Assembly (NCBI GenBank): GCA_029261035.1
Contig: JAJDCD010000025.1
Span: 62,001-126,000 of the forward strand
DNA length: 64,000 nt
Direction of reading: 5' to 3'
Source of the DNA: Candidatus Omnitrophota bacterium
Lineage (GTDB): Bacteria; Omnitrophota; Omnitrophia; Omnitrophales; JACROU01
Shown: positions 2,592-64,000 of the stretch, piece after piece
Numbering within the stretch: position 1 is the first letter of the stretch
How the letters are laid out: every line of letters begins with the position of its first letter
Translations under genes and position numbers: made by a program
Notes under the pieces: generated by a model
Database searches by the model: none
The model's input: the letters and a program-made list of their open reading frames with translations, nothing else
Told to the model about the DNA's origin: nothing

Positions 2592-3610
2592 CCGAGCGTT
2601 TTTCCACTCTGAATCACTTGTATCAACTCATCTGGAAGACACACAGCAACACCCACTTTAGAGACAACAACACCTGCCGCCAAATTAGAAATCATAGCCG
2701 CTTCTTTCATAGTTGCTCCAACAGCTAATGCTAAAGAAAACACAGAAACAACGGTATCACCCGCTCCAGCTACATCATAAACCTCTTGGGCTGCCGCCTT
2801 CACTTGAGTTACGCTTCCATCCTTTTCAAAAAGAGCCATCCCATCTTTTCCTCTAGTTAACAAAACACCATCACACCCTAACTTGTCTAATAGCTTTTGA
2901 CCTACTTCTTCGATAGTTAAGTTTTGATTTTCGTGATCTTTAACGGCACCAATAGCTTCATGGTGATTTGGGGTAATTGCAGTAACACCTTCATAGTAAG
3001 AAAAGTGTTTTTCTTTGGGATCTACAACGATTTTCTTTTTATGCTCTTTGGCAATTCCAATTACTTCTTTAAGAAGTTCTTTGGTTATTAAACCTTTACC
3101 ATAATCCTCAATAATAACAACATCTACTTGATCTATTTTCTTTGAAACAAAATCGACAATTTGCTTTGCATCTTTTTCTAAGATAGGTGAGACATTCTCT
3201 CGATCAAATCGAACCACTTGTTGAGAATGCGCAATAATTCGTGTCTTTAATGTTGTAGGTCTTTCCTTATCATAAATAATACCGTCCGTTTGAATCCCTT
3301 CTTTTCGCATCTCTTTGGTTAACATTCTACCGTAAAGATCTCTACCCAAAACACCACAAGGATAAACTTGAGCCTTCATACACTGAATATTATGAGCTAC
3401 ATTCAAAGATCCCCCAGGCATAAAAGACTGTTCTTTAACATTAACAACTGGAACAGGTGCTTCTGGGGAGATACGGTTAACGTCACCCCAAATAAATTCA
3501 TCTAAAATGAAGTCACCAATAACCAATATTTTAGCTTTGGAGAAACTACGCACAATTTCACTAAAACGTGTACTTGTAGCCTCATCTAATGTTAATGATT
3601 TTTCTTCCAT
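2588..3610 (-). CDS. hldA: D-glycero-beta-D-manno-heptose-7-phosphate kinase (HldE kinase domain / HldA)
   Basis: This is a PfkB/ribokinase-fold sugar kinase that matches the N-terminal half of HldE (RfaE domain I), which phosphorylates heptose-7-phosphate at C1 for ADP-heptose synthesis. Visible signatures are PGGSLNVAHNI near the N-terminus and DVAGAGDT, which carries the catalytic Asp, near the C-terminus. The cytidylyltransferase-like half of bifunctional HldE is absent, so a separate HldE-C gene is expected elsewhere. The open frame extends to a GTG at 3691, but those 27 extra residues are not typical; I place the start at an ATG at 3610, preceded by GGAAAG, with an ATG at 3664 region as an alternative. 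It overlaps kdsB by four bases. Substrate is inferred from the LPS context. Confidence 0.85.
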   Translation of the reverse strand: MEEKSLTLDEATSTRFSEIVRSFSKAKILVIGDFILDEFIWGDVNRISPEAPVPVVNVKEQSFMPGGSLNVAHNIQCMKAQVYPCGVLGRDLYGRMLTKEMRKEGIQTDGIIYDKERPTTLKTRIIAHSQQVVRFDRENVSPILEKDAKQIVDFVSKKIDQVDVVIIEDYGKGLITKELLKEVIGIAKEHKKKIVVDPKEKHFSYYEGVTAITPNHHEAIGAVKDHENQNLTIEEVGQKLLDKLGCDGVLLTRGKDGMALFEKDGSVTQVKAAAQEVYDVAGAGDTVVSVFSLALAVGATMKEAAMISNLAAGVVVSKVGVAVCLPDELIQVIQSGKTLG

Positions 3611-33492: not shown

Positions 33493-36400
33493 TTATGCAG
33501 CTGTGAGAAGGGCTTGATACGCTTTAAAAGCTTGTTGGAGTTTACTGATTTTTTCTCTTAAGGAATTTTTAACAAAAGTAAAAACACCTCTCTTCTTATC
33601 TTTCCGAATATTGTCACGCACAGGTTTCATTAATGGATGAGACATATCCCCTTCGCTCATTCCCAACAAGAAAGCATGCGGCAATGCATAACGATTAAAA
33701 TCTGCTAACTCAATACCTAAATCACTTAACTCATTTGAAGAAGGGGTCTCTAACCTTTGGATCAACATAAGATCAATCGCACTTAATAATTCGGACGAAC
33801 CTACAACGCTCAATCTACGATGAACCATCGCCTGAGTTATATTTACACTCACTTCTTCAAAATACTGTTTTGCCAAATTTAAGATTTGAACAAAATCTTT
33901 TCCTGTTAAATAAGATTGAAAACTATCGACTTCATCCCCTTTAAGTATAGGAATAACAAGAATTCGATCATTAATTAGCTCCCCATTTTTATCCTTCAAG
34001 AATTTTATTTTATTTTCAATCTGTTTGGCTTCTTTATTGGTTCCATAATAAAAAATTAAAGACACTGTTTTTGGATTATTCGTAAGTAATAGTGACTCCG
34101 ACTCTACATCAAAGTAATCACTTGTTTTCATAACAACAGAAAAAGTCTCTGAATTCAAATCATAGGCATTAAACACACGACTTTGAGTTTCCGAAAGCAC
34201 TCGATCAAAAGAAACAACCCTTGGAGATTCAGCATCCGCACTTTCAGCCGCAAAAGCTTTTGGATACCAAGAACTCATAACAAGTCTGTAAAGAGAGCTC
34301 TTCGCAGAAGAATAAAAGGACAAAGGTAAAATGCGTCCCGAAAATAACTGTGCCGTTTCTCTAACACGATCCACAACACCCAAACTTGCAGCAGAAACGT
34401 CTGCTAACTCAGGGTCATTGGAATAAATAAACCCTCCTCCAGAAGTACGATTTATAATATTTGCATGAAACACCGCTAAATCATGCTGATCTAACAAAGT
34501 ATGAACTTGGTTAAAAAAAACAAAATCTGATTTCCCAGACTCCAAATCACCTCTTGTTTTATACTTAAATGCCTGAACCCAAGCATTTACCTCTGGGTTA
34601 TCAAGGTCCACTGTCACAAACTGCCAAGAGTCACTGACCCCTGGTAAAAAAGAAAATGCTTTTCTGATGTTGTTTCTCATGTCCTCAAAGTCTTTCTCCA
34701 AAGGAGTTACCGTTCTAAATCCTTCATTAGGAATATATTTTTGAAACTTGTGCTTAAACCCATTCCACTGACCATAAACACCTCCATCTTTGTGTCTTAA
34801 GTCTATGAATGGGTAAATAATCTCCCCTCTTTTAAATGCTTCTAACACACGAGTGTCTCTATCTAAAATATTAAAATCTAAAGGAATCTCTTCTAAAGAC
34901 ACCCCCTCCTTTTGATACGCAGTCATCATCAAAATTAAAATACTTAAAGGTTCTTCAAATACACCTGGACCTATTAAATCGATGGTTATTTTTTTATTTT
35001 GTTCATCGCTTTCCTTTTTCTTTCTAATCAACTCTCTTAACTTTAAATAAAAACTTTCATACTGTTTATGAGTCCTAAAAAACAACCCATACCGACCCGT
35101 TCCTTCATAATCCAAAGGAAGGGTAACATCACTTTCTGGCTGAACCCAATACAAACTAAATTTTCCAAATTCTCTTTTATACTGGTCCATATCCTTAATT
35201 CCATTCAAATACATAAAGTACTCTCTAAAATCATCGTACCCACTAGCACGTGCAAAGCCTGACAAAGCCTTCAAAAAACTCTCTGAAAAGATGCGTCCCA
35301 TATCTAATTGATGTATAAATGTTGCTCTAAAAGCTAAACTAGAAAGCATATCCGAAATCAAAACTCCATCCACACTCCCTATTCTTTTCACTAGACTCTT
35401 AGACACTTGTATTTCTCCTGTTTTAAAATCCGTTTGCTGCTGTCCCAGACTAGAAGCTCTCGAACGAGCAGCATCCATCACATCAACAACATCTTTAATT
35501 GTTTCTTTTGTATGATATGGAAGCATAGACATCTTTACAGAATATGTTGGATCATCCTGAATTTTTAATAAATAATCATGCGGAGTCATTAAAATTAACT
35601 CTGAGTAACGAGCCATTGCAATTTTTCTGCTTTGCTCAGCAAATATTCGGACCATTCTGTCTTCAGTATATTCAGAGACCTGCTGTAAAAAATTAATTTG
35701 TTCTTTTAAGTAATCAACAAGCATAATTAAATTCCACAAAAAAGAAGGTGTTGTTCCAGACTCACCCCAAAGCTCCCACAAATCACTATAGGGACTATCC
35801 AGTATTTCTATAAACTTATTTTTCTCAAGCAAGTCTCTAAAAGCACGTCTAGATTCAACAGAATTAACCGCTTTAATAATTCCCGCAGATGTAAATCCTG
35901 CTTTAAATAGCACTTCTTGTTTCCTCTCCAAAATTTCTCTTCTATCTTCTTCCAAATCATTATTCAAAATATTACTATTTCTATCGTACGCATCATGAGC
36001 TCTTTCCGACAATGTAGCAACAAAATCTGTTGGAATATCAACATAAAGCAAACTTGTAACTCTAGGTAACCAACCCATTCTAACCTTTGCTTCAAAGTAT
36101 TCCTCAGCAAAAAAACTTTTCCACAAAAATTGATACACCCCTTTTAAGTCGTTTACATTTAAAAGCTCTTGCTCCTTCTCTTTATTCCACCCACTATGAT
36201 TCAATAATCCTTGAACCAAGCCTTCTACAAAGAACTCAAATCCATCATATTTCTCAAAATGATGCAAACTATCAACAGCAGAAACCGAAGATAATAAAGC
36301 GTCACTCACTTTCAGTTCTTTGCGCCTAGCACTTGTGAAAGGGTATTCATAAAGCATTCTAGAAGCAAAAAAGTCTGTCAAAACAAATCGTTGTCCTTGA

Positions 36401-39400
36401 TTTATAGTTATTAATTTTTCTGGGTTTGTTAAGGGAATACGTCCTTGAACAAATTGATATGCCAATGCCTTTCCATAACCATAAGCAGCTTGTTGCACCC
36501 ATGACTTCTCATCCTTTTTTTCTATTAATTCTCCTTCATGAGTTGCTCGAATGGAACCTGGGCTCAACCTTAAAAGATACCCTTGTTTATTCGTTTTGTG
36601 TTCAAATTGAATACTAGCAATTACCCTAACAAGAGTCTCTTTTTCATACCCTTCTAAAGTAAAAGTCCCATATTGTTGCAAAGCATCAAATTCTCTTTTA
36701 GCCTCTCCAGCCGTCAGTCCTCCTCGAATACCTCTAAAGGAATCTTCGTAATCATAACCGCCTTCTGGAGTCCCAACCCCTTTTAATTCAAGAAAAAACT
36801 CTTGGCCATTCAACGAAAAAATCAAAGGCATTCCATTCTTTAAAACAATTCCTGTCCTCCCACCTGCACGCGTACCAATTTCAGGAGGAGTTACAGACAT
36901 CAACACACTATAATCTTCCCCAATATCTTCAGAGCTCGTAACAAGAACAGCCCCTGATAAAAAGTATTCTTTTAAGTCCTCCGGAACCATTTCCCAATCT
37001 ACGGATGTTTCCATACTAACTTCATCCATCAGAGTAAATGCGAGAGGTATTTCTTCCACAGATCTCAAATCTGTCCATTGAGCCTTAAAAGTCGCTGAGT
37101 CAGCATTTACAACATTTCTAAACTCTCTCCCTTTAGAATACACTGGTTGTATTTTTCCATCTCCATCTCTTGATAACCCAACAAGAAGATCGCCTTCCTG
37201 TCTAGCACTTTCAAACCTCTCTCTAACCTCAGAATCTTCTACACTTTCAAGCTCGCTCAACTTCTCAGGCTCTGGCCAAAAATCGATTTTCTCACCACTA
37301 TTTCGCTGCCAAATAACAAGCCCTTTCTGTAGAAGCTTACTTCCAAAATCAGAAAAAAACCTCAAGCCCCCCTCAAGCTTTTGGTAAGCTTTTGTAGGAG
37401 AACCATAAAGCTCTCTCAACATATCAAGCGTATGAACCCTTCCTTGGAGTTTGGATTCTTTGCTAAAATATTCCGACATAGTTTCGAAGTGAATCTTAGC
37501 AAAACTAATGTTAGGCCTATTAAAAGCTCCTATAAGATCTTCTATATGTCTATACGTATCTTTATGCCATTTCTTAATTCTTTGCTTTAACCTACTACGT
37601 AAAGACCAATAATCATTTTGAGGCTGCACTTCTGAAACAATTAAAACAGGATTATTAGACGCATCCCTCGATACCACGACATGCATCCAACCAATAAGAC
37701 CTGGTCCCTCTGGAAAATTTTTCAAATCCACCTCTCCCAAAACACCTCTAACCTCCTCTAAATCTTTTGTGTATTTAGTACCCTTTGAATCAACCAAAAC
37801 ATACACAACCAACGTTGGCTCATAACTTTCATTAAAGAATGGGAGACGATCAATGCTTGCAGACAACTTGTATTTACCTAACTTTGAACTTTTATTAATA
37901 CTCTCTTTAACTCTCTCTAAAAACCTCCAGTTCTCCAAGTAAATTGCTAAATTTCTACTTTGATCTGAATTCTCATTATTCAAACCAAGAGAAGATGCAT
38001 CTACCTTACTCAACACTTTCTCTCGACTTGCTACAACAGGAAGGTCGCCATCAGTTATTGAAGCCTGATAACTTTGATAAATCTCTTCAAAATAACTGCT
38101 ATTAGAAAATAACTCAAAAACATCTTTCGATAATTTTGGATCAGAAAAAGAAAAATCAAAACCTAGCAAAACAACATTAATTAATTGCTGCACCCTTTCA
38201 TCAGACAATCCTAAATGAGATAAATTATTACTCATAGAGTCCCTTAAATAACCAGCAAACTGATTAGCAACATCAATATAAAATTGAACTTTTCCTTGAT
38301 AATCAATTAAATAAAACTGTAATTCTCCCTTATGATCATCAACAACCACCTCCGCATTAGGCCATCCTCCCACCTTTTGATAGAAAGAACCTATAACCTT
38401 CCCAAACTGATAAAAGGCATTATCAAGAAAACCTTCATCCCCTAACCTTTCTCTGTTAACTAAAAGCCATTCATCAAAACTAATTCCAGGAGTATAGTCT
38501 TTGATATAAACTCTAATTGGATCTTCCTTATCAAATCCAATCTGAACAAATTGAAGAGGGCGAGTTAAGTAAGGCGTCTTTTCATAATCTTTCATACTTT
38601 CTTGGTATTCCATATACGTATGAGAATCCGTAACAGCCCCATCCACACGATACATAAACTTGTCTGTAGCTGCCGTTAGATAAAAAACTTCATCTGGGCT
38701 TCTTAGCACAATAAGGTCCACCTTCTTATTGGACCCTTTAGCCTTACTTAAATCTATGAGCTCAATATCAAATTCGGAAAGTGGCTTGTCTGAACCTCTA
38801 AGTTCAAGAACATTTTCAAGTGTTCTTAATCCAGTTTTCTTATCCTTTACCAATAAAGCAGCCAAGATGCTTAAATGTGTGTCATGAATACCCTCTAACT
38901 CCTTATGAGAATCATAAACTTTAGTTTTAGCCAATATCTTTTCAACCTCTTCATCAAATTCAACCCGTTTAAAACGAAAGAATCTTCTCGTGCTCTCCTT
39001 AACTGATTCTTTAAATACAAGAGTCTCTTTTAATTGTTCAACACCCAATGATTGAGCCTCTGAAATCAAAGAGTCTTCCTGAGTAACCACACCTTCCTTT
39101 TCTTCTATAGACATAATCTGACTAAAGAAGTCTTTAACCACCCTTTCCATTTCGTTCTGTAACGCTAAATTATTTTGACTGTAGTGCTTATGCTGTGTTC
39201 CTTTCTGTAAAGTCACTACGTTTGACCCTGAATCAGACCGCACTTCTGGATCAATGATAAAACGATGAGATACATTCTTCAAACCAGAGAAGGCCAAAAC
39301 AAGATCCAGCTCTTTAGCAGAAGGATCCACTGAAAAATAAACAGAACCCACCCCACTTGGAAGGCCCTTCACTTTTAAAGAAACATGCCAATCATAACCT

Positions 39401-42400
39401 CTCTCTAAATCAAAAAGCTTAGGACCTTCATGTTCGATTTCTTCTGGTAGATTTTCTTTTTTGAACAGATCTTTAAACCTTTGAATTAAAGGAGTTGGAT
39501 CAATAGGATAAATAGATGAGAAAAAGATAGCATCCGAAGCCTCTTCTGCTTCAGACAAATCTAACTCTAAATTAATTAAAGTAACTTCTTCATCCAAAGC
39601 AGGAAAGGAAATACGTCTGCTGTCCTTATCAAAAGATAATATGGGTTTAAAGGTCTTCAGAGAATCAAAAAGTCTCGCGCTCTGAGAAGGATAAATCGGC
39701 TCTTCTGATTCATATAAAACATAATACGTATCATCCACTAATACATAAGGGTCTAAATTTTCGGAGGTCCATATACGAGAAACATTCCCTACGTAGGCTT
39801 TACCATCAGACTGTTCTCTTAAAAAACGATTTAACTCATATTCAAACAACAGTTCTTCAGTGCTAACATCGTCTCTTTTCATTAAAACATACTGCTTCCC
39901 ATCAACATCCTCAAAACTCCAATAAACATCGCTCAGTTTTTTTACCTGGACAAAACCTTCAATTCCAAATAAAGGCTCCACTCTCTGAATAAACTCCCCT
40001 TCAACACCTAAACTTCGGGCGGTGAAAAATTCTAAAACATCTCTATTGGGGTGCTTATTTTTAAATTCGTTACGACCTCTAAAGTTAACTCCTGTTCCAG
40101 TTAAATCAACCACCTCTAACTTTACTAAGTTAAGTAAAGCTTCTAAGTTTCGATTCTTCACATCTCTTATTCTAGCCAAATACAGTTCCTTCAAATTAGT
40201 TAACTTGCTAATTATCTCTAAATCACTTCCTTTTATTTGAGTCCTAGTTAGATTCAGCACTTCTAAATTTCTTAGAGCTTCTAACTGTTTTAACCCAGTT
40301 CCAGTTACCCTAGTTCCACTTAGACGAAGTTCCTTCAGATTAGTTAATTGGATTATATCCTCAAGAGCACGATCTCCAACTTCAGAGCCTATCAAAGAGA
40401 GGGTTTTTAAATTTAGTAAATTCCTTAAATAGTTTAACCCTTCATCCATTACTTGGGTTCGATCCATTATAAGGCTTTCTAAATTCGTCAACTTTCTCAA
40501 ATGTACTAACCCTTCACCCGTTACTTGCGTATCTTTTATATCAAGATTTTTCAAACTTATTAAACCACTCAAATGAGTCAGCTCTTCATTTCCAATGTCA
40601 AGTTCACTCAGATCAAGACTTCTCAAATTAGCATGTTCTTTTAAATGCCCAAGCTCTTCATTTCCAATGTCATAATAAATAAATAAAAGAAATCCTAAAT
40701 TTTTTATCCCTCTTAATTTACTTAGTGAGACATTTTCAAATGGTAAGAAACCAAGTTTGATATTTAGCATTAAAGTATCTTCTTCAAAACCTACAGCTTC
40801 TCTAAATTCACCTTGTTCATATACAGAAGGATTATTCAAATCATCTAAACGACCTTTTATATCCTCTCTCACCCGTGCTTTATATTCTTCTATCACCTGT
40901 TGACCTTTTTTCGTTTCTCTTATTCGTCGTATAGCTTGTTTATGCTGCTCATGATAACTATCTGGAAAAAGGATACCTTGAGCCCACCCTCCTTCCAACA
41001 CTCTCATCACTTCATCTTCTCTTCCAAGTCCTCCCAGCCTATGAAGAACCATCCCTCTCAACCCAAAATTTTCTGGGTATTCGTGCAACGCTCTCATCAT
41101 TTCATTTAATCCCATATCAGGGCCTATACCAAGGCTTTGCGCTTCTGTACTTTTAGGCTCATCTTCATCATCTGTTTCAACCCAAGAGATATTTCTATAA
41201 TTTACCTCTACATCTCTTCTTGCAAGATAAATTCCTCCCGCTCCTGTCCCGACAGCAACAAGCAATAAGAGTGCGGGAATAGCTATAGGCATAGAGAATA
41301 AGAAAGAAAACAAACCTAAGGTAAACATGTTGATTCCTAAAAAGACAATTCTTTCTCCTCGAGTAGAGCCTGGGGTCAAAGTGCTTTGTGGAAAATCAAA
41401 ATCTTGAACATCCTCATCTCCTAAACTAGCTCCCACAACAGCTCTTCGATCTCTTTCTCTATCATCAAGAATGCTTCTTTCTTCAAAAGACACATCTGAC
41501 ATTTCGCTTCTCAACAAATCCTGATAATTACTCACCTGATCGAACAAAAACCAATTACGTTCTGTTGGCTTTAATCTTAATTGTTGTTCAGCTTGAGCAG
41601 CTCGATATTCCTCAAGCAATTCATCGTACTCCAACAACTCACTCTCATCTCCTTCGTAACGAAGTAATGCTGCTTGAAACATTTCGAGCAAAAGTCCTAA
41701 TTTCAAGTCTAAATGCCTCAATTGCTCAATTTGATCAAAAACTTCTTTTCCCTTTTGCACAAAAAAGTTTTCTTCAAAAATATATCCACGAAGAACTTCA
41801 TAAGTTGTTTTTTTCTTTTTTATTTGAATAGGTTGCCCATCTACATCTCGTGATGCTGTAGCCACTGGCATAAGCATTCTTCTTTCTTCAGACCAAACAC
41901 CCGAATTGATTTCGCGAGACATTGCCCAAATAGCTGCAGTCCATAGAAAAGGAATCAAAGTCATCAGGATACTAAAAATAGAAAAAATAGTTGCGTTTTG
42001 AATTGCCGCATCCGGGCCAGGGCCAACAATAAATGAATGAATACCTATAGGAAGCAAAGAAAATGGCATATATTGAAATAAAAACTTCGTGAAAAAATCT
42101 TGAAAAAGTACAATTCGGTTCGCATGTCGTTCAGGGTTTTGAACAGCAGACACAAAAGAGTATAATTGAGAAGACATGGCACTATAAGCATCCCCTGCAC
42201 TTCCTCCATAGGCTCCGTGCCAAGCAAAGATTTCATCCGCCTCTTTTCTGTAAGATTTTCCTAAAGCACGAATATCTTTTATGACTTGTTTTACAGCTTC
42301 ATTCCGATCAGAAGAAAGGTTCGGATTAGAAAAAATATTCGCCACTTCACTTACTGCCACTGAGCGTTTTTGTATCGACCTCATGGATGGAAGCAGCATA

Positions 42401-45400
42401 ATAAGTGCTGTTGCAAATACATTCCTATGGGGAGGCGGAATATTCGTATTAATAGCAGCATCCCTCAGAATAAGCACCGCTTTTTTGCGGTTGCCAATGT
42501 AGCCCTCCCGTCTCATCAGTGCAACAATAACTTCCGCAGCCTGCTGCACCTGTCCTTCTGTATATAACCGCCATGCATCATCAAATTCTAAAGCAGGTTC
42601 TTGAGATCGCAATTCTTCTTTCCCCAAACTCGCTCCTTCAATTTGACGATCATCTTTTTTCTTCTTTTTCTTAAGCTTTATACTTAGCTTTTCTGGAGTT
42701 TCTGATATGTCTGGGGTTGTTGAGATGGAAAAACCCAAACTTGAAAATCGAATAGAAAGCTGATCTTTATAACTCTCTATTTGAGCTTGCATCCTTGGGC
42801 TCTCAGTTTGAAACTCATCTAGAAACTCATGAAATCCCTGTACATCTTGAATAATTCGATTTTTTAAATTAAGATTATCGAAATCATCTGCATATTTAAA
42901 AATAAGGGATGCAATTTCATTTAGTAAAATTAACCTTGAGTCTAAACTGTCCAGATATTCAAATTGACTCAATAAATATTTGCGTGACTGTTTATCGTTA
43001 AATAAAGATTTTTCTGATTCCCATATCAACCTTCTAACATGGCTTACAATGTCACGATCAGCTAATTTGTTTTGATCAAAGAGCTCCTCACGAAGCTCTC
43101 TTCTTTCTCTTATTTTATTGAATACTTTTTTAAGAGTCCCAACAATGACAATAAGAGAAACAAAAGATATCAATACATTGATATTAAAATGAGATGTGTA
43201 AAATCGATGAGGATTAACGTCGAAAAAAGAATGGTAAATGCTAACTAAAGGAATAATAGCAATCACCCAAGCAAAACTCGCCACTAATGCAAGACCTTCT
43301 ATTTCATTAAAATCCCTATTTCTATAAACTGTCAAAGGATCTTCTATTAAATGCTCTGTCTCAAAGATGAAATCGGATGTAAGATAATACTTTTGCTTAT
43401 CATCTTCTTTTCTAATTGAGTAATTAAAACGATCTGTATTCTCCTGCATCAAATAAGTCCTCAATAAACGCTTCGCATCTAACCCATATTCTGAATTTGT
43501 TAAAATTTCAGCATACTGATCAATTTCTTCTCTCGATTGAGAAATTACGCCTTTCATCCCTTCTGTTGCTAAAATAAGCTCAACATAATAACGAGCTACA
43601 CTTCTTCTCTTCTTTCTGTCTTTATAGTAATACAGATGATGACTGTGCAAATATTCAATTATTTCTCTTTGATAAATATTTTCTGCTGGCAATGGCCTAT
43701 ATTCCAAAAGCAAATCCAAAGCTTCTCCATGACGTTGTGCTTCTCTTAAAGACCGGTGTCTAACAGCCAATTTATTTGCTTCATCATCTGTTAAATCCAC
43801 ACTAACTCTTTCTTTTGGATCAGATCTGTCTGAATAATCAAACGGAAATTCATCTTTGGAAAACTGCTTACCCAAACTCGCACCTTCTAGCTGACGGTCA
43901 TCTCTTACTTTTCCAGTTTTAGAATCTTCTGCAATTGGAGGGGCGGAAATATCTCTTTGAATATCTGGAAATGGAATATCAGGAAATTGTTGAATTAAGA
44001 ATTCCCGCAGGTTTTTAGATTGGTCTTTGATGGGCTCCGACACGGAACTTATTTCTGTTAAAAATTGATAAAAGGCTACAATTTCATTATTGAGCCACTC
44101 TACCAACAATGGGTTTTCTTTTTCTTCCGAATATTTAATGACGGCTGCTGCTAATTCATTCAGCAAATAAATTTGAGCATCCGTGGTTCTCAGTTTTTCA
44201 AATTGAAGTTTAATGTATTGACGATGTTTTTCATCATTAAAGAAATAGCTGTCTGTTGTCCATAACTTCTTATTAACTGCCTTAACAATTTCTTGATCAC
44301 TCTCACCTAAAGATTCAAAAAGAATTTGGTTCTGAAGTTCTAGATAATTAAGATCTTTTCCTCTGTTTTTATCCAACATCATTCTAAAAATAGCAATTAA
44401 AGATATGATTGGAATTAAAATGGCAACTCCTCCAAGAACATAATCCGATATCTGAGAAGCCTCTAGCAAAACACGAGTGCCTAAGGTAATAAAAATTGCT
44501 GGCATTGGAACAAGTATCCAATTTTGTTTTCTGAAAATTACATTAAAAATTGAAGGGTTTCCAATTTCTTCCAAGTAAGCTTGAGGATCTAAAATCATTC
44601 TAGAAGCATGTTCTGCATCTCGTGCTGTTTTATAATAAGGCCCAGCAGGTCCTGAACCATATTGACCACCACCCCACTCAACATACTCCTTATACTTTTG
44701 GGCGCCTTGCTCATTTAGTTCTTTTGAAAGCTGTTTCAATAGATTTGAAGCTGTTTCCGCTGAAACAGCAGACGAGATTAGATCAACCATTTTGTCTTGA
44801 AGGTCCCAATCATCAAATTTAGATTCTACACCTGGCAACAATTGAATAAAAAACTTAGCTGCTTTTCTTCGAATTTGCACAGGTTGTGTTTGATCAAACA
44901 GCAATGGATAAACTAAATCAAAACTTTGTTTTCGATATTCATCATTATCGGGTAATATTCCTGGAGAACGCGCTAATAGAATATGAATCATCTTTTCATA
45001 AAAACCCAATTGAAATAAACCCTTAGCTTGAGTCAATCGATTTCTAGCATCTTCGATACCTGCTACGGATAACCTTTCATCAAAACCAAACTGCCTTTCA
45101 GTAAGTGGCGAGTTTCCCATAATAGAGCGTCGACGAGACACTTCCTCTCCAGCCGCACCAGGATCAAAATCACGCCATTTAAGCCACATCTGCTCTGTAT
45201 CTACAACTGTCAAATCCAAAGGCTCTGGATGCTTTTCATAAATCTGTCTAATTTCTTCTCGAGATACTGGAGTCTGGTAAAAACTAACATGCAATAAATT
45301 CTCCATACCTTCAATCAAACTAATGTCTACCGACTCTAAACCATCTAGATTTAAATCAATCTCTTCTTTCCATTCATTCAGAATAACTCTCTTATCCCAC

Positions 45401-47499
45401 TCCTCTTCTAGTCCATTGACTCTTAAAATTTCTCTTACCCTCTCTTTATCTTTTTCATAAGATCCTAATGATTGGGCCAAAACAGCTTCTTCGCTCAACG
45501 GTTGGGTTTGGTTTTTGTTTACAACAAAGGTAGGGCGAATAATCACAGCTTCTTGGATAGGGATTAGAATAGACTGATTTGTCAGTCCCAAGCTTATCTC
45601 TACACCTTTTTTATCAGAAGAATCTTCCAAACCTGTTTGATAATTCACAGTCAAATCTGCTTGTTTAAAAAGAACATTGGATTCCAAATAGCGACTTATA
45701 TTTTGAACTAAAACTTCTGTATTGTTTCTTAAATTTGGATTTAAAGATAATTCGCGCTCAATCAGAATATTTAAAAGATCAATCACAGCATCAACAAGCA
45801 TTTCCACTTGCCTTTTTTCATCTCCTCCTAAAAGTTGAATTTGTTTCAGATCCCCTACCATCCCAAGCACTTTTTGAATTTGGGAGGTATCAAAAATAGT
45901 TTTACTCATTCCCATAACAGACTGGTGATACTTCTCGTGACCAAACTCCGTTTGGATTTGAGGCTGAACTCCAACATAAGATATGTTTTTATCCTTAATC
46001 AATTCTGCTAATCCTTCGGAATGAAAACCTCCCGTAATTAAGATGGCTTTTTCTTGTTTCATTTGTTTCATTTGTTTTTGAAGTTGCTCAAATAAAGCTT
46101 TATTACGTTCTTCGGCTAATCGGTAGAACTCGATAGCATTCTTATAGACAGGTTTAAATGTTTTTTGATTTTCTAAAAGAGTTCCCAAATCTCTTTCTTC
46201 TTGGTTTGAGAGTTGCAGAAGACGATCCGTCAACTTACGCACATCTCCATTCAAACCTTTCCAATCAGAGTATGACAATTCAAAAGCAATCAATTTCTTA
46301 AATAAATTCAAATCCTCACTCAGCTTAATTAAAATCTGTTCATTTTCGTTCTTAGATAAAAATTCATATAAATTTCTACTTAATTGGTTCATTTCATTAA
46401 AAAACTCAGGACCTGTAATTTCGCTCTGAAGAATGAAGTGTTCTGAAAACTTTCTTAAATTTTTATACGCTGAAAGATCTATTTGAGCCTGCAAACTTGC
46501 TTCATAAATAAACTGAAAGAATTCTCGGGGAGCTTTTCCTGTCGTTTCGTAAAGTCGTGTCACCAAAGATTGGTTGATCTGATTTCGTTTTGTAATGGAC
46601 GTTAGCCCTCGAATCAGATGCTGCTTATCCCGCTCATCAAAAACTCGTTCTCTCATCAGATGAATTAGTTGTGTTACTTCCTTCTGGAGACCCTCATCAT
46701 CTAACTCTCGTTCTCTATCTTGAACACGAAGCATTCGACACAGAAAGGGATATTCTTTTTGGTTTAAGGGTGAGGTCAATTCTATATTAAGAAACTCTTC
46801 TGCTTTTTTTTCTAAATAAGAGATAAATTGAATGAGTTCGATTTGTTTATTCTGATATTGCAGAACTTTTTTATCAAATTTTAATAACTCGGGATTGTAA
46901 ATACGCGATTTTAAAATATTCAGTTCTCGGTCAAAAGAATCAAAAAAGGGTTTTGCTTCTTCTTTGGTTTGAAGGCCTTTACGGAACAAAGTGTAATCCT
47001 CTCGGTAAAGGTCTGTTTTTTCAACTCCTTCAAAAAAGATACCTTCATAATCTTTTAGCCCTTCAGATATTTCCAAAGCAAAAAGTTCTCCACCTGTAAC
47101 CTCCCCCTTCTGAGCTAAGGCGTCTGCTACCTTCATATTAATATCTGCATAAGGAAAAAAGTGATAACTACGAGGATCTAACGAAGAGGACGCTCCTTCT
47201 AAACCAATTAACTGATAATCATGTTCACGGACTAAGTAATCTAAAATACTTTGGATATTTTTCTGTGCTTCATAGTTCGCATGAGCATCTTGAATATGAA
47301 CAATCACTTTTTCGGAGTCTGCAGGAATAACTTCTTTGACTGTACCTAGTTGTTGAGGTAAGGAGAGTTGAAGAGCACTTTGAGACACACTTTTTACGTT
47401 TAGCGACAATAGCCCCTCTGGAACAGACCATGCCACTGTAGTTGTCGTAAAGCAAATAAGCACAAAACTAGCTATAAACCTCAAGTATTTAAAACCCAA
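33493..47499 (-). CDS. Giant mosaic protein of 4,668 residues with recurrent [A/G]xSLG motif
   Basis: The start is a TTG with GGGAG seven bases upstream. Residues 1-24 look like a signal peptide. Domains I can see: about 60-520 a TraB/ChaN-like (Tiki superfamily) region with HIQDAHANYEAQ, IGLEG and GGFHSEG; 820-2016 three related modules, each with two hydrophobic helices (near 995-1040, 1400-1455, 1807-1859); another helix pair at 2050-2092; nine 24-residue leucine-rich repeats at 2263-2480; kinase-like stretches near 2985-3075 and 3508-3720; and a CheR-like methyltransferase region at 4166-4365. Ten [A/G]-x-S-L-G motifs stand at 675, 1206, 1622, 2023, 2120, 2494, 2815, 3168, 4015 and 4370 and tend to fall between these blocks. 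The protein should be exported or membrane-bound. Function unknown; catalytic residues are only partly kept. The frame is open throughout, so I do not think it is a pseudogene. Confidence 0.9.
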   Translation of the reverse strand: MGFKYLRFIASFVLICFTTTTVAWSVPEGLLSLNVKSVSQSALQLSLPQQLGTVKEVIPADSEKVIVHIQDAHANYEAQKNIQSILDYLVREHDYQLIGLEGASSSLDPRSYHFFPYADINMKVADALAQKGEVTGGELFALEISEGLKDYEGIFFEGVEKTDLYREDYTLFRKGLQTKEEAKPFFDSFDRELNILKSRIYNPELLKFDKKVLQYQNKQIELIQFISYLEKKAEEFLNIELTSPLNQKEYPFLCRMLRVQDRERELDDEGLQKEVTQLIHLMRERVFDERDKQHLIRGLTSITKRNQINQSLVTRLYETTGKAPREFFQFIYEASLQAQIDLSAYKNLRKFSEHFILQSEITGPEFFNEMNQLSRNLYEFLSKNENEQILIKLSEDLNLFKKLIAFELSYSDWKGLNGDVRKLTDRLLQLSNQEERDLGTLLENQKTFKPVYKNAIEFYRLAEERNKALFEQLQKQMKQMKQEKAILITGGFHSEGLAELIKDKNISYVGVQPQIQTEFGHEKYHQSVMGMSKTIFDTSQIQKVLGMVGDLKQIQLLGGDEKRQVEMLVDAVIDLLNILIERELSLNPNLRNNTEVLVQNISRYLESNVLFKQADLTVNYQTGLEDSSDKKGVEISLGLTNQSILIPIQEAVIIRPTFVVNKNQTQPLSEEAVLAQSLGSYEKDKERVREILRVNGLEEEWDKRVILNEWKEEIDLNLDGLESVDISLIEGMENLLHVSFYQTPVSREEIRQIYEKHPEPLDLTVVDTEQMWLKWRDFDPGAAGEEVSRRRSIMGNSPLTERQFGFDERLSVAGIEDARNRLTQAKGLFQLGFYEKMIHILLARSPGILPDNDEYRKQSFDLVYPLLFDQTQPVQIRRKAAKFFIQLLPGVESKFDDWDLQDKMVDLISSAVSAETASNLLKQLSKELNEQGAQKYKEYVEWGGGQYGSGPAGPYYKTARDAEHASRMILDPQAYLEEIGNPSIFNVIFRKQNWILVPMPAIFITLGTRVLLEASQISDYVLGGVAILIPIISLIAIFRMMLDKNRGKDLNYLELQNQILFESLGESDQEIVKAVNKKLWTTDSYFFNDEKHRQYIKLQFEKLRTTDAQIYLLNELAAAVIKYSEEKENPLLVEWLNNEIVAFYQFLTEISSVSEPIKDQSKNLREFLIQQFPDIPFPDIQRDISAPPIAEDSKTGKVRDDRQLEGASLGKQFSKDEFPFDYSDRSDPKERVSVDLTDDEANKLAVRHRSLREAQRHGEALDLLLEYRPLPAENIYQREIIEYLHSHHLYYYKDRKKRRSVARYYVELILATEGMKGVISQSREEIDQYAEILTNSEYGLDAKRLLRTYLMQENTDRFNYSIRKEDDKQKYYLTSDFIFETEHLIEDPLTVYRNRDFNEIEGLALVASFAWVIAIIPLVSIYHSFFDVNPHRFYTSHFNINVLISFVSLIVIVGTLKKVFNKIRERRELREELFDQNKLADRDIVSHVRRLIWESEKSLFNDKQSRKYLLSQFEYLDSLDSRLILLNEIASLIFKYADDFDNLNLKNRIIQDVQGFHEFLDEFQTESPRMQAQIESYKDQLSIRFSSLGFSISTTPDISETPEKLSIKLKKKKKKDDRQIEGASLGKEELRSQEPALEFDDAWRLYTEGQVQQAAEVIVALMRREGYIGNRKKAVLILRDAAINTNIPPPHRNVFATALIMLLPSMRSIQKRSVAVSEVANIFSNPNLSSDRNEAVKQVIKDIRALGKSYRKEADEIFAWHGAYGGSAGDAYSAMSSQLYSFVSAVQNPERHANRIVLFQDFFTKFLFQYMPFSLLPIGIHSFIVGPGPDAAIQNATIFSIFSILMTLIPFLWTAAIWAMSREINSGVWSEERRMLMPVATASRDVDGQPIQIKKKKTTYEVLRGYIFEENFFVQKGKEVFDQIEQLRHLDLKLGLLLEMFQAALLRYEGDESELLEYDELLEEYRAAQAEQQLRLKPTERNWFLFDQVSNYQDLLRSEMSDVSFEERSILDDRERDRRAVVGASLGDEDVQDFDFPQSTLTPGSTRGERIVFLGINMFTLGLFSFLFSMPIAIPALLLLVAVGTGAGGIYLARRDVEVNYRNISWVETDDEDEPKSTEAQSLGIGPDMGLNEMMRALHEYPENFGLRGMVLHRLGGLGREDEVMRVLEGGWAQGILFPDSYHEQHKQAIRRIRETKKGQQVIEEYKARVREDIKGRLDDLNNPSVYEQGEFREAVGFEEDTLMLNIKLGFLPFENVSLSKLRGIKNLGFLLFIYYDIGNEELGHLKEHANLRSLDLSELDIGNEELTHLSGLISLKNLDIKDTQVTGEGLVHLRKLTNLESLIMDRTQVMDEGLNYLRNLLNLKTLSLIGSEVGDRALEDIIQLTNLKELRLSGTRVTGTGLKQLEALRNLEVLNLTRTQIKGSDLEIISKLTNLKELYLARIRDVKNRNLEALLNLVKLEVVDLTGTGVNFRGRNEFKNKHPNRDVLEFFTARSLGVEGEFIQRVEPLFGIEGFVQVKKLSDVYWSFEDVDGKQYVLMKRDDVSTEELLFEYELNRFLREQSDGKAYVGNVSRIWTSENLDPYVLVDDTYYVLYESEEPIYPSQSARLFDSLKTFKPILSFDKDSRRISFPALDEEVTLINLELDLSEAEEASDAIFFSSIYPIDPTPLIQRFKDLFKKENLPEEIEHEGPKLFDLERGYDWHVSLKVKGLPSGVGSVYFSVDPSAKELDLVLAFSGLKNVSHRFIIDPEVRSDSGSNVVTLQKGTQHKHYSQNNLALQNEMERVVKDFFSQIMSIEEKEGVVTQEDSLISEAQSLGVEQLKETLVFKESVKESTRRFFRFKRVEFDEEVEKILAKTKVYDSHKELEGIHDTHLSILAALLVKDKKTGLRTLENVLELRGSDKPLSEFDIELIDLSKAKGSNKKVDLIVLRSPDEVFYLTAATDKFMYRVDGAVTDSHTYMEYQESMKDYEKTPYLTRPLQFVQIGFDKEDPIRVYIKDYTPGISFDEWLLVNRERLGDEGFLDNAFYQFGKVIGSFYQKVGGWPNAEVVVDDHKGELQFYLIDYQGKVQFYIDVANQFAGYLRDSMSNNLSHLGLSDERVQQLINVVLLGFDFSFSDPKLSKDVFELFSNSSYFEEIYQSYQASITDGDLPVVASREKVLSKVDASSLGLNNENSDQSRNLAIYLENWRFLERVKESINKSSKLGKYKLSASIDRLPFFNESYEPTLVVYVLVDSKGTKYTKDLEEVRGVLGEVDLKNFPEGPGLIGWMHVVVSRDASNNPVLIVSEVQPQNDYWSLRSRLKQRIKKWHKDTYRHIEDLIGAFNRPNISFAKIHFETMSEYFSKESKLQGRVHTLDMLRELYGSPTKAYQKLEGGLRFFSDFGSKLLQKGLVIWQRNSGEKIDFWPEPEKLSELESVEDSEVRERFESARQEGDLLVGLSRDGDGKIQPVYSKGREFRNVVNADSATFKAQWTDLRSVEEIPLAFTLMDEVSMETSVDWEMVPEDLKEYFLSGAVLVTSSEDIGEDYSVLMSVTPPEIGTRAGGRTGIVLKNGMPLIFSLNGQEFFLELKGVGTPEGGYDYEDSFRGIRGGLTAGEAKREFDALQQYGTFTLEGYEKETLVRVIASIQFEHKTNKQGYLLRLSPGSIRATHEGELIEKKDEKSWVQQAAYGYGKALAYQFVQGRIPLTNPEKLITINQGQRFVLTDFFASRMLYEYPFTSARRKELKVSDALLSSVSAVDSLHHFEKYDGFEFFVEGLVQGLLNHSGWNKEKEQELLNVNDLKGVYQFLWKSFFAEEYFEAKVRMGWLPRVTSLLYVDIPTDFVATLSERAHDAYDRNSNILNNDLEEDRREILERKQEVLFKAGFTSAGIIKAVNSVESRRAFRDLLEKNKFIEILDSPYSDLWELWGESGTTPSFLWNLIMLVDYLKEQINFLQQVSEYTEDRMVRIFAEQSRKIAMARYSELILMTPHDYLLKIQDDPTYSVKMSMLPYHTKETIKDVVDVMDAARSRASSLGQQQTDFKTGEIQVSKSLVKRIGSVDGVLISDMLSSLAFRATFIHQLDMGRIFSESFLKALSGFARASGYDDFREYFMYLNGIKDMDQYKREFGKFSLYWVQPESDVTLPLDYEGTGRYGLFFRTHKQYESFYLKLRELIRKKKESDEQNKKITIDLIGPGVFEEPLSILILMMTAYQKEGVSLEEIPLDFNILDRDTRVLEAFKRGEIIYPFIDLRHKDGGVYGQWNGFKHKFQKYIPNEGFRTVTPLEKDFEDMRNNIRKAFSFLPGVSDSWQFVTVDLDNPEVNAWVQAFKYKTRGDLESGKSDFVFFNQVHTLLDQHDLAVFHANIINRTSGGGFIYSNDPELADVSAASLGVVDRVRETAQLFSGRILPLSFYSSAKSSLYRLVMSSWYPKAFAAESADAESPRVVSFDRVLSETQSRVFNAYDLNSETFSVVMKTSDYFDVESESLLLTNNPKTVSLIFYYGTNKEAKQIENKIKFLKDKNGELINDRILVIPILKGDEVDSFQSYLTGKDFVQILNLAKQYFEEVSVNITQAMVHRRLSVVGSSELLSAIDLMLIQRLETPSSNELSDLGIELADFNRYALPHAFLLGMSEGDMSHPLMKPVRDNIRKDKKRGVFTFVKNSLREKISKLQQAFKAYQALLTAA
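40060..40737 (-). repeat. Leucine-rich repeat array in the giant protein
   Basis: About nine units of 24 residues follow the pattern LxxLxLxxTxVxxxGLxxLxxLxN (residues about 2255-2480). Two adjacent units share an exact 21-base stretch (40580-40600 and 40652-40672, 72 bases apart), so duplication was recent there. Such arrays bind proteins. Confidence 0.85.
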
Positions 47500-62766: not shown

Positions 62767-62820
62767 TAAAGGGGACAGGCAACTTTTCTATTTGTTAAAA
62801 AAAGTAGCCTGTCCCCTTTA
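62767..62820. repeat. Palindrome overlapping the stop codon of the edge gene
   Basis: TAAAGGGGACAGGC (62767-62780) and GCCTGTCCCCTTTA (62807-62820) are perfect 14-bp arms; ACTTTT / AAAAGT extends the stem by six after one mismatch. The last three bases, 62818-62820, are the stop codon of the gene on the minus strand, so the stem begins at the stop itself. Confidence 0.85.
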
Positions 62821-64000
62821 CGCTGCCGCCGCTACAAGCTCTTCAGCTTGGAACTGGGCATACACCTTATTTAATAGGGTTGTAATGAAACTGGCCCCAA
62901 TAACCCATTCTTGACCATCAGGCTTGAAGCCGGCTTTGAGAAAAAGCTCCTCTCGAAGATCAGGGTAATTGGCTAATTGACGTAAGAGGGCTACGACCTG
63001 GACAGGATCTACTCCATTACCTGACAACACTTCTAAGTCAAGACGTACTCGATCTCCGTTACTGAAAATCATCTGGAATACATTTTCGTTTGGACTCACC
63101 CAAATACCTGGCACCTCATATTTTCTTAATGAAGCTCTAAAAATTTCTGGATTCAAAAGCTCTCGACGCACATCTTTAAGTTTAAATTGTTTTCCAGGTA
63201 ACTTATATAGAGCTTGAAGAAACTCCGGCTTACCTCTCCCCTCCCACGTTACCATCAACAAATCTTTTTTCTGCATCATGCTATTAAACTGAGATGCACT
63301 TCTTTCAGGGTCGTCCACATGACTTAAAATGATGTCATCCACGATCAGTGGAATGGGTTTATTGACTTCAGCTTCTAGCAACCCCGAAACTTCCAAAGAT
63401 AAATATTGAGTCATCACCTCTAAGGATTGATTAAAATCTATAATACGAGGATCTATGATTCGATCTACTGTATCTTCCAAAACTCCCATACGAATAAGTA
63501 AACTTTTAATAACCTCTAATGGAGAATTTGGCATAAATAAGATTTGCCCTGCAAAGGCTTGAGCAACTTGAATCATTCCTTCAACCGAAACATCTCGCGC
63601 TTTAATTTGAGTTAAAGCAGGTTCTGCTCCCAAACTCTGCGCTTCAGCTCTGAGCCATTCTTCTTCCGGACCACTCAGTTCGTTCGCCTCATCTCCAGAC
63701 TCTCGTTTCCATAATTCTGATAAAGTTTTTAACTGGTTTATAACTAAATCAAATCCTATACCTTCCTCTTTTTCTAGAATCATCAAAACCTCTTCCCCTC
63801 TTTTTGCTTTGATTAAATTTGCTCCATATTTACCCTCAATAAACCATCTTAAAAAATTATTTTGAAAATCAACTTTTTTACTAATATCCTTCTCAGCTAA
63901 CAACGTATCAAAAATAACAGAAAAAGCTTTTTCAATTCTTTCCAACTGTTTTAGTTTTTTATTTTCATCTAATACTGAAGGCATAGCTAAGAAAAGAAAA
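62818..64000 (-). CDS. 3' part of an unknown protein with the AQSLG motif
   Basis: I do not recognise a family. An ATG exists at 63984, but the frame stays open to the window edge and the bases before that ATG (a pyrimidine-rich run) hold no ribosome-binding site, so I think the gene starts outside the window. The visible 388+ residues contain a charged helical part, then AEAQSLGAEP (residues 115-119 counted from the ATG), then a globular-looking part with PIPLIVDDIILSHVDDPERS and a C-terminus ending in AAAA. The AQSLG motif is the same as in the giant protein at 33493, where AQSLG occurs three times. Probably another mosaic protein of that kind. Confidence 0.65.
   Translation of the reverse strand, partial: FLFLAMPSVLDENKKLKQLERIEKAFSVIFDTLLAEKDISKKVDFQNNFLRWFIEGKYGANLIKAKRGEEVLMILEKEEGIGFDLVINQLKTLSELWKRESGDEANELSGPEEEWLRAEAQSLGAEPALTQIKARDVSVEGMIQVAQAFAGQILFMPNSPLEVIKSLLIRMGVLEDTVDRIIDPRIIDFNQSLEVMTQYLSLEVSGLLEAEVNKPIPLIVDDIILSHVDDPERSASQFNSMMQKKDLLMVTWEGRGKPEFLQALYKLPGKQFKLKDVRRELLNPEIFRASLRKYEVPGIWVSPNENVFQMIFSNGDRVRLDLEVLSGNGVDPVQVVALLRQLANYPDLREELFLKAGFKPDGQEWVIGASFITTLLNKVYAQFQAEELVAAAA

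Follow-up and report, generated by a model that had tools for sequence, protein, structure and literature searches.

Giant proteins of an Omnitrophota genome share a TIKI-type N-terminal domain and a border pentapeptide that may mark polyprotein processing sites

Introduction

What is the role of a five-residue peptide that recurs along a single giant protein? The question is raised by a 64,000-nucleotide stretch of a Candidatus Omnitrophota genome (G000, 2.70 Mb; contig C18, positions 62001-126000), referred to here as the window, in which a giant open reading frame (ORF) on the reverse strand contains the peptide [A/G]-x-S-L-G ten times. The original prediction had listed these copies at residues 675 to 4370, and all were confirmed. 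Among the meanings it offered, protease sites that split a polyprotein remain the best reading, in which cleavage is conjectural. The analysis also revealed a common N-terminal domain, a C-terminal tail and the replacement of the peptide by others among relatives, none of which had been anticipated.

The giant ORFs of the Omnitrophota, which include the 39,678-residue protein of Ca. Velamenicoccus archaeovorus, rank with the largest proteins of bacteria; the publication on these ORFs describes them as hard to assess, with little conservation and few domains (PMC10066038). They have also been counted (PMC11573180).

Results

The pentapeptide is concentrated in giant proteins

Shuffling of the 4668-amino-acid (aa) window protein yielded a mean of 0.26 motifs (maximum 4 in 2000 runs) versus the ten observed, and 2.4 SLG triplets versus 13. 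The count was then extended to about 860 kb of G000, a non-random sample consisting of most of the large contigs C16 and C18 and of stretches picked for motif matches. Twenty-eight giant ORFs (1,176-7,483 aa) contained 150 copies versus 6.3 expected, and the remaining 593 ORFs contained 25 versus 11.3 expected. One-residue variants (TLG, SIG, SVG, SMG, ALG, GLG, SLA, SLS and SLN) were near or under expectation in the giants, and SLG without the preceding small residue ([^AG].SLG) showed almost no excess (48 versus 38.2 expected). Together, the shuffles and the one-residue variants exclude a chance origin of the motif. A sequence logo of the 150 copies revealed V, S, A, I or T two places N-terminal of the A/G in 125 of them (background 0.32), while the free motif position was mostly S, A, Q, N or K.

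Of the 25 giants whose N-terminus is complete, 21 have a hydrophobic stretch there. Enrichment of the motif in signal-peptide proteins holds for the giants, which mostly bear one, and does not extend to a general association, other N-terminally hydrophobic proteins having 10 copies versus 4.9 expected. Phylum-wide counts of the corresponding DNA pattern gave a clear excess in G000 alone, the reversed-pattern control varying with GC and CpG content. The motif excess is therefore confined to giant, mostly signal-peptide-bearing proteins, and the ten window copies are a one-gene case of a genome-wide pattern.

The giants share a TIKI-type N-terminal domain and a C-terminal tail

All-against-all comparison revealed that residues about 45-530, a region of about 480 aa termed here the N-domain, are common to giants whose cargo is unrelated. 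An iterated profile found it in 21 sampled proteins, one of which is a standalone, motif-free protein of 497 aa. Motif-bearing giants without it mostly had a short hydrophobic N-terminus followed by a motif at residues 60-83, or were truncated at a contig end. Of 285 Omnitrophota genomes searched, 143 contained the N-domain, among them every genome of the same order; it headed ORFs reaching about 13,000 aa, where ORF lengths from searches of such genomes may include runs of N; apparent ORFs of 24,618 and 35,113 aa (L283-L292) were rejected as mostly such runs. Records titled Ca. Auribacter and Elusimicrobia also contained it (L137, L159, L181, L183).

The AF2 model of the N-domain, built from a 60-sequence alignment, reached a pLDDT of 92.9 and a pTM of 0.88. 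Searches of the PDB with the model (Foldseek) and with the sequence profile gave no significant and no relevant match, respectively, and matches to curated profiles were weak: ChaN (PF04187) at E 0.0053 in one of 16 sequences, and, for the standalone copy, the NCBIfam model TraB (TIGR00261) at E 1.9e-6, under that model's cut-off. The top six VIA-align matches were HopBA1, EreC (two), BcR135 (two) and ChaN, with Z from 8.3 to 9.4 and the next unrelated structure at 6.6; since these values are middling, the superfamily assignment also needs the active-site match. Four residues, H73, E101, R465 and H493, were invariant in 91 of 91 N-domains. The other acidic residue, two before the first His, was mostly Asp71 and sometimes Thr, Ser or Asn. 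In the characterised TIKI endopeptidase RRSP, the catalytic residues are His-3902, Glu-3930, Arg-4001 and His-4030; the structures of HopBA1, BcR135 and ChaN are TIKI relatives, and the Ere family, which includes EreC, has been compared with RRSP (PMC6254334). The H-to-E spacing is 28 in both the N-domain and RRSP, and the R-to-H spacing is 28 versus 29. A predicted parallel beta core with flanking helices, together with the catalytic set in matching order and spacing, thus places the N-domain in the TIKI/TraB/ChaN superfamily. Members of this superfamily differ in activity and include esterases and haem binders; the modelled fold and the putative active site of the N-domain indicate a hydrolase, not specifically an endopeptidase.

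The giants also end alike. An [AS]A terminus was present in 23 of 25 complete giants versus 8 of 517 other proteins (Fisher test, 1e-31), preceded by an amphipathic profile with Leu at -22, -18 and -15, an aromatic residue or His at -11, Ala at -9 and Ile, Leu or Val at -5. NCBIfam contained no match for this tail. In other families of the phylum, complete ORFs with an N-domain commonly had an [AS]A-type ending, which was also present in Ca. Auribacter (L137), while the giants of genome G184 end in -[SA][LV]-COOH instead of -AA-COOH. Nearly all sampled giants therefore have a hydrophobic N-terminus, usually an N-domain, unrelated cargo with the pentapeptide at its borders, and a C-terminal tail.

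Motif copies lie at module borders

Only one of the 150 motif copies fell inside an N-domain, versus 15.1 expected (P 2e-6); this lone copy, AESLG at residue 302 of the C16:6826 giant (L051), is probably due to chance. In 16 of 19 proteins, the first motif followed the N-domain end by 15-145 residues, typically 40-145. The median motif spacing was 355 residues, and some neighbouring motifs were just 21-30 residues apart. Outside the N-domain, BLAST matches between giants had 555 edges, of which 86 lay within 5 residues of a motif, versus 15.6 expected, in a test that is partly circular as a conserved motif can stretch an alignment up to itself.

Individual domains agreed with this pattern. In giants of G000, a macro domain (3171-3282) and a His-phosphatase (3366-3548) fall between motifs at 3149 and 3584, a kinase begins at 1104 right after a motif at 1098, and an RNase_T domain stops at 1033 before a motif at 1045. 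In giants of relatives, a receiver domain (1752-1873) is flanked by RSExR sites at 1734 and 1879, and a HAD domain (1887-2095) by RSExR-type sites at 1863 and 2154. None of the best Pfam stretches among the giants was seen with a motif inside, and homologous modules in genomes of the same family start at the motif in both of the proteins compared, as at residue 753 of C16:271465 and residue 978 of L115. The cargo included kinases, macro domains, NUDIX domains, methyltransferases, phosphatases, receivers, nuclease-like domains, WD40/beta-propellers and leucine-rich repeats (LRRs). A predicted transmembrane (TM) helix was missing from 107 of 123 internal, motif-to-motif segments; most segments being without one, an even number of TM helices between motifs was uninformative as a topology test. 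The consensus peptide thus sits at module borders and avoids domain interiors.

The window giant follows the same layout, with a signal peptide, a TIKI-like N-domain, pentapeptide-punctuated modules and a C-terminal tail (Table 1). The claim that its motifs lie between recognisable blocks was borne out past the TraB/ChaN-like part, which ends at about residue 530, around the LRRs, and between membrane modules, of which modules 1 and 2, the only pair compared, align with 29% identity (E 3e-18). For the proposed CheR-like block, Pfam gave nothing at E<=0.01. The window giant's C-terminal domain had a counterpart in just one other sampled giant; another, unlike it, was common to several. At the right edge of the window lies part of a second giant, in which the profile search placed an N-domain at residues 45-514 and which has four motifs.

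Table 1. Giant proteins of the window and their parts (window coordinates; residue numbers in brackets; HMM, hidden Markov model)
Feature	Position	Strand	Basis or remark
Giant ORF	33493..47499	(-)	4668 aa, TTG start; 10 motifs vs 0.26 by shuffling
Predicted N-terminal signal peptide (about 1-25)	47425..47499	(-)	Hydrophobic stretch 8-26
N-domain, assigned to TIKI/TraB/ChaN superfamily (44-530)	45910..47370	(-)	HMM, model, structural matches, invariant residues
Motif 1, AQSLG (675)	45463..45477	(-)	Sequence match
Motif 2, GASLG (1206)	43870..43884	(-)	Sequence match
Motif 3, GASLG (1622)	42622..42636	(-)	Sequence match
Motif 4, GASLG (2023)	41419..41433	(-)	Sequence match
Motif 5, AQSLG (2120)	41128..41142	(-)	Sequence match
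Motif 6, ARSLG (2494)	40006..40020	(-)	Sequence match
Motif 7, AQSLG (2815)	39043..39057	(-)	Sequence match
Motif 8, ASSLG (3168)	37984..37998	(-)	Sequence match
Motif 9, ASSLG (4015)	35443..35457	(-)	Sequence match
Motif 10, AASLG (4370)	34378..34392	(-)	Sequence match
LRR module (2292-2472), flanked by motifs 5 and 6	40084..40626	(-)	Pfam LRR_4 above cut-off, LRR_14 E 4.7e-07
C-terminal amphipathic tail, end ..KAYQALLTAA-COOH	33496..33573	(-)	Position profile of giants
Second giant of same kind, C-terminal part	62818..64000	(-)	Full protein 1986 aa, G000:C18:124818-130778, ends ..EELVAAAA
AQSLG of second giant	63628..63642	(-)	Sequence match

Related lineages use different peptides

When peptides were counted de novo in the N-domain giants of other genomes, the motif was found to change between lineages. 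In G020, RSELR occurred 41 times versus 0.07 expected, and R-S-E-[LVM]-R was likewise found in G050, G009, G064, G072 and G048, with looser forms in G062 (family f7, R[SA]E[VA]R) and G035 (family f5, [RK][SA]ELR). Across this clade of the order, the peptide reads [RK][SA]E[LVMA]R. The [AG]xSLG form was also present in families f1 (G028, G042), f4 (G026; 43 versus 1.1 expected, mostly with G at the first position) and f8 (Ca. Omnitrophus fodinae, of the same order). In a UvrB tree, the RSExR families f2, f3, f5 and f7 formed one clade (98/95), outside which the AxSLG families fell, in an unresolved part together with f6. In G031, from another class, [GA]AR[LM][AS] was present in all five giants examined. 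An alignment of the three peptides places Ser or Ala among the main residues of position 2 and Leu at position 4.

The same search in G080, G184, G040, G061, G083 and G125, some of them represented by one or two giants, found nothing clearly above shuffles except HExxH in the cargo of G184. Several G184 giants without a punctuation peptide (L210-L219) contain such HExxH metallopeptidase-like motifs, with a Pfam M48 match at residues 921-1000 of L213. A 3,966-aa N-domain ORF of G229 (L208) contains SGAAP with TD.SG 12-14 times, which may be a simple repeat.

Peptide processing compared with other explanations

On balance, we favour the reading that the pentapeptide is recognised, in its lineage-specific form, by an endopeptidase that cuts apart Sec-exported polyproteins, cleavage itself being an inference. 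In this scheme, the giant chain would be exported through its hydrophobic N-terminus, and the endopeptidase would recognise the pentapeptide after the N-domain and again between modules, at intervals of about 355 residues. The cut might follow the A/G, as a guess from the upstream rule of small-aliphatic-x-[AG] in G000, which resembles signal peptidase sites. Enzyme and sites would have drifted together, which would give [RK][SA]E[LVMA]R or [GA]AR[LM][AS] in relatives, and the released modules may be effectors directed at cells of a host or prey. A symbiotic or predatory lifestyle has been proposed for the Omnitrophota (PMC10066038); the cargo fits release into the cytoplasm of another cell, a presumed step in line with that proposal. 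A single trans-acting enzyme would be more economical than self-cutting, because one strict peptide serves about 25 giants with divergent N-domains or none.

Conservation at the DNA level is a competing explanation, in which duplication and exchange of modules would have left the 15-bp motif as a scar, or would take place at it, and the peptide would be incidental. Codon usage bears on it directly. The Ser codons in the window are TCA, AGT, AGC and TCT, as had been stated when selection on the peptide was preferred to a DNA repeat. That preference is upheld by families f1, f4 and f8, which retain the [AG]xSLG peptide through different codons, and by the third positions of motif Ala and Gly in G000, which are at background. 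The codon evidence itself proved weaker than had been supposed, as motif Ser in G000 is AGY in 115 of 140 copies versus 51 expected and motif Leu is TTR-biased, and the copies are therefore partly related by descent or duplication. Similarly, f2 favours CGY-TCC at the first Arg and Ser, with Glu and the last Arg at background, and f4 favours GGC-TCG-CTG-GGG; these biases were noted at the G000 motif sites and at loci L091-L108 and L196-L197. These biases, and the duplication of motif-bounded modules between giants, are what a DNA element would predict. The background third positions, codons flanking the motif without clear excess, the recoding of one peptide in three families, and the confinement of the excess to giant proteins, in frame, make it highly improbable. 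Judged from the codons, selection on the peptide is the main factor, with shared descent or duplication of copies likely, most strongly in f4. An internal translation start within RSE[LVM]R, with [LVM] as NTG and AGGAG upstream, was rejected, since the Ser is TCN rather than AGY and the NTG is not constant.

Two further explanations accept the peptide as the conserved unit. It could remain uncut, bound in flexible linkers by a surface, chaperone or secretion partner that docks or anchors the chain as a coat or fibre. Repeats in linkers along very long chains, the lack of a protease among the families S26, C80, C11 and S41, and the extracellular coat proposed for the Velamenicoccus giant (PMC10066038) would suit this; soluble, cytoplasmic-type enzymes fitted into the intervals, mostly without TM helices, four extremely strict positions and motifs at the closest spacings argue against it, and we regard it as fairly unlikely. 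Quite unlikely, in our judgement, is autoproteolysis in cis, in which the TIKI N-domain of each giant cuts its own linkers. The fold, the invariant H, E, R, H set with spacing like that of the characterised endopeptidase, and a first motif just past the domain are consistent with it. Motifs are also present in giants without an N-domain (e.g. C16:204493, 213754 and 222674), and N-domain paralogues about 25% identical would all need one specificity; motif-less lineages have the domain too, no column tracks the motif type, and the superfamily's range of activities extends beyond peptidases. As the enzyme of the trans-acting scheme, the N-domain is a candidate by modelled fold and active site, in general terms rather than with specific support.

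Several observations weigh against processing by an endopeptidase. No protease tracking the motif was found among the four families. Genomes of the order have essentially one S26 copy each, which rejects a dedicated extra signal peptidase as the cutter; C11 was absent from all 19 genomes searched, with positive controls in 4, which rejects Arg-specific processing by clan CD; and S41 was rejected for its patchy distribution. The C80 search matched none of the 19 genomes, its control being silent too. The standalone N-domain protein (C16:405715) was rejected as a conserved trans-acting enzyme, having no close orthologue outside its own family. Among 91 N-domains no columns were found that separate the motif classes, and the active site is intact in lineages with no detectable motif (G040, G080, G184). 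A few giants have long motif-free stretches, with a gap of up to 2569 aa, and an N-domain-headed ORF of 16,199 aa (G000:C26, L280-L282; no N runs) holds only 8 motifs. The motif codon bias, that of Leu in G000 included, goes beyond peptide selection alone.

Discussion

More broadly, and tentatively, it is possible that much of the giant-ORF repertoire of the Omnitrophota, with some of that of the Elusimicrobiota and Auribacterota, constitutes one exported polyprotein superfamily, with a TIKI-type head, a C-terminal sorting tail and a processing enzyme of drifting specificity that cuts at the pentapeptides and so releases numerous small proteins, which probably form an arsenal aimed at a host or prey. 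If true, this would be a bacterial polyprotein system without a described counterpart. The common head, the tail and the lineage-specific punctuation peptide amount to a shared grammar by which each giant can be divided into testable modules, and which predicts exact neo-termini that can be checked in existing proteomes, for example those of Velamenicoccus co-cultures. If the chains are cut, "giant protein" would be the wrong term; they would amount to operon-like polyproteins, and a novel processing enzyme, along with a novel tail for export or sorting, would await discovery.

A search of open-licence papers found nothing related to the pentapeptide motifs. The published Omnitrophota giants are of the same phylum, and Ca. 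Omnitrophus fodinae, discussed with them, is a motif-bearing relative here; in the sections considered, that publication mentions neither processing nor a tail, a linker motif or an N-domain common to the giants (PMC10066038). With ChaN, EreC, BcR135, HopBA1, Tiki and RRSP of the TIKI/TraB/EreA/ChaN superfamily, the N-domain appears to share the fold and the H, E, R, H set. Unlike these, it has a predicted helical insertion of about 320 residues between the active-site halves and a variable first acidic residue, mostly Asp, and it stands as the N-terminal head of multi-module giants. The tail resembles the C-terminal sorting systems PEP-CTERM and GlyGly-CTERM in being a short conserved signal on otherwise unrelated exported proteins; it differs in being an amphipathic helix that ends in -AA-COOH with no basic end, and the pentapeptide of the giants is internal and repeated. 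MARTX-type multi-effector proteins likewise combine a long exported chain, unrelated enzyme modules and short cleavage sites, which in the giants are putative. The giants differ from them by the N-terminal TIKI-like domain, by a C80 search that was as silent as its control, by dozens of paralogues per genome and by a site consensus that shifts between lineages. Viral polyproteins also have short, lineage-variable consensus peptides at domain borders, whereas the giants are bacterial chromosomal genes with signal peptides, for which no protease was found among the four families searched.
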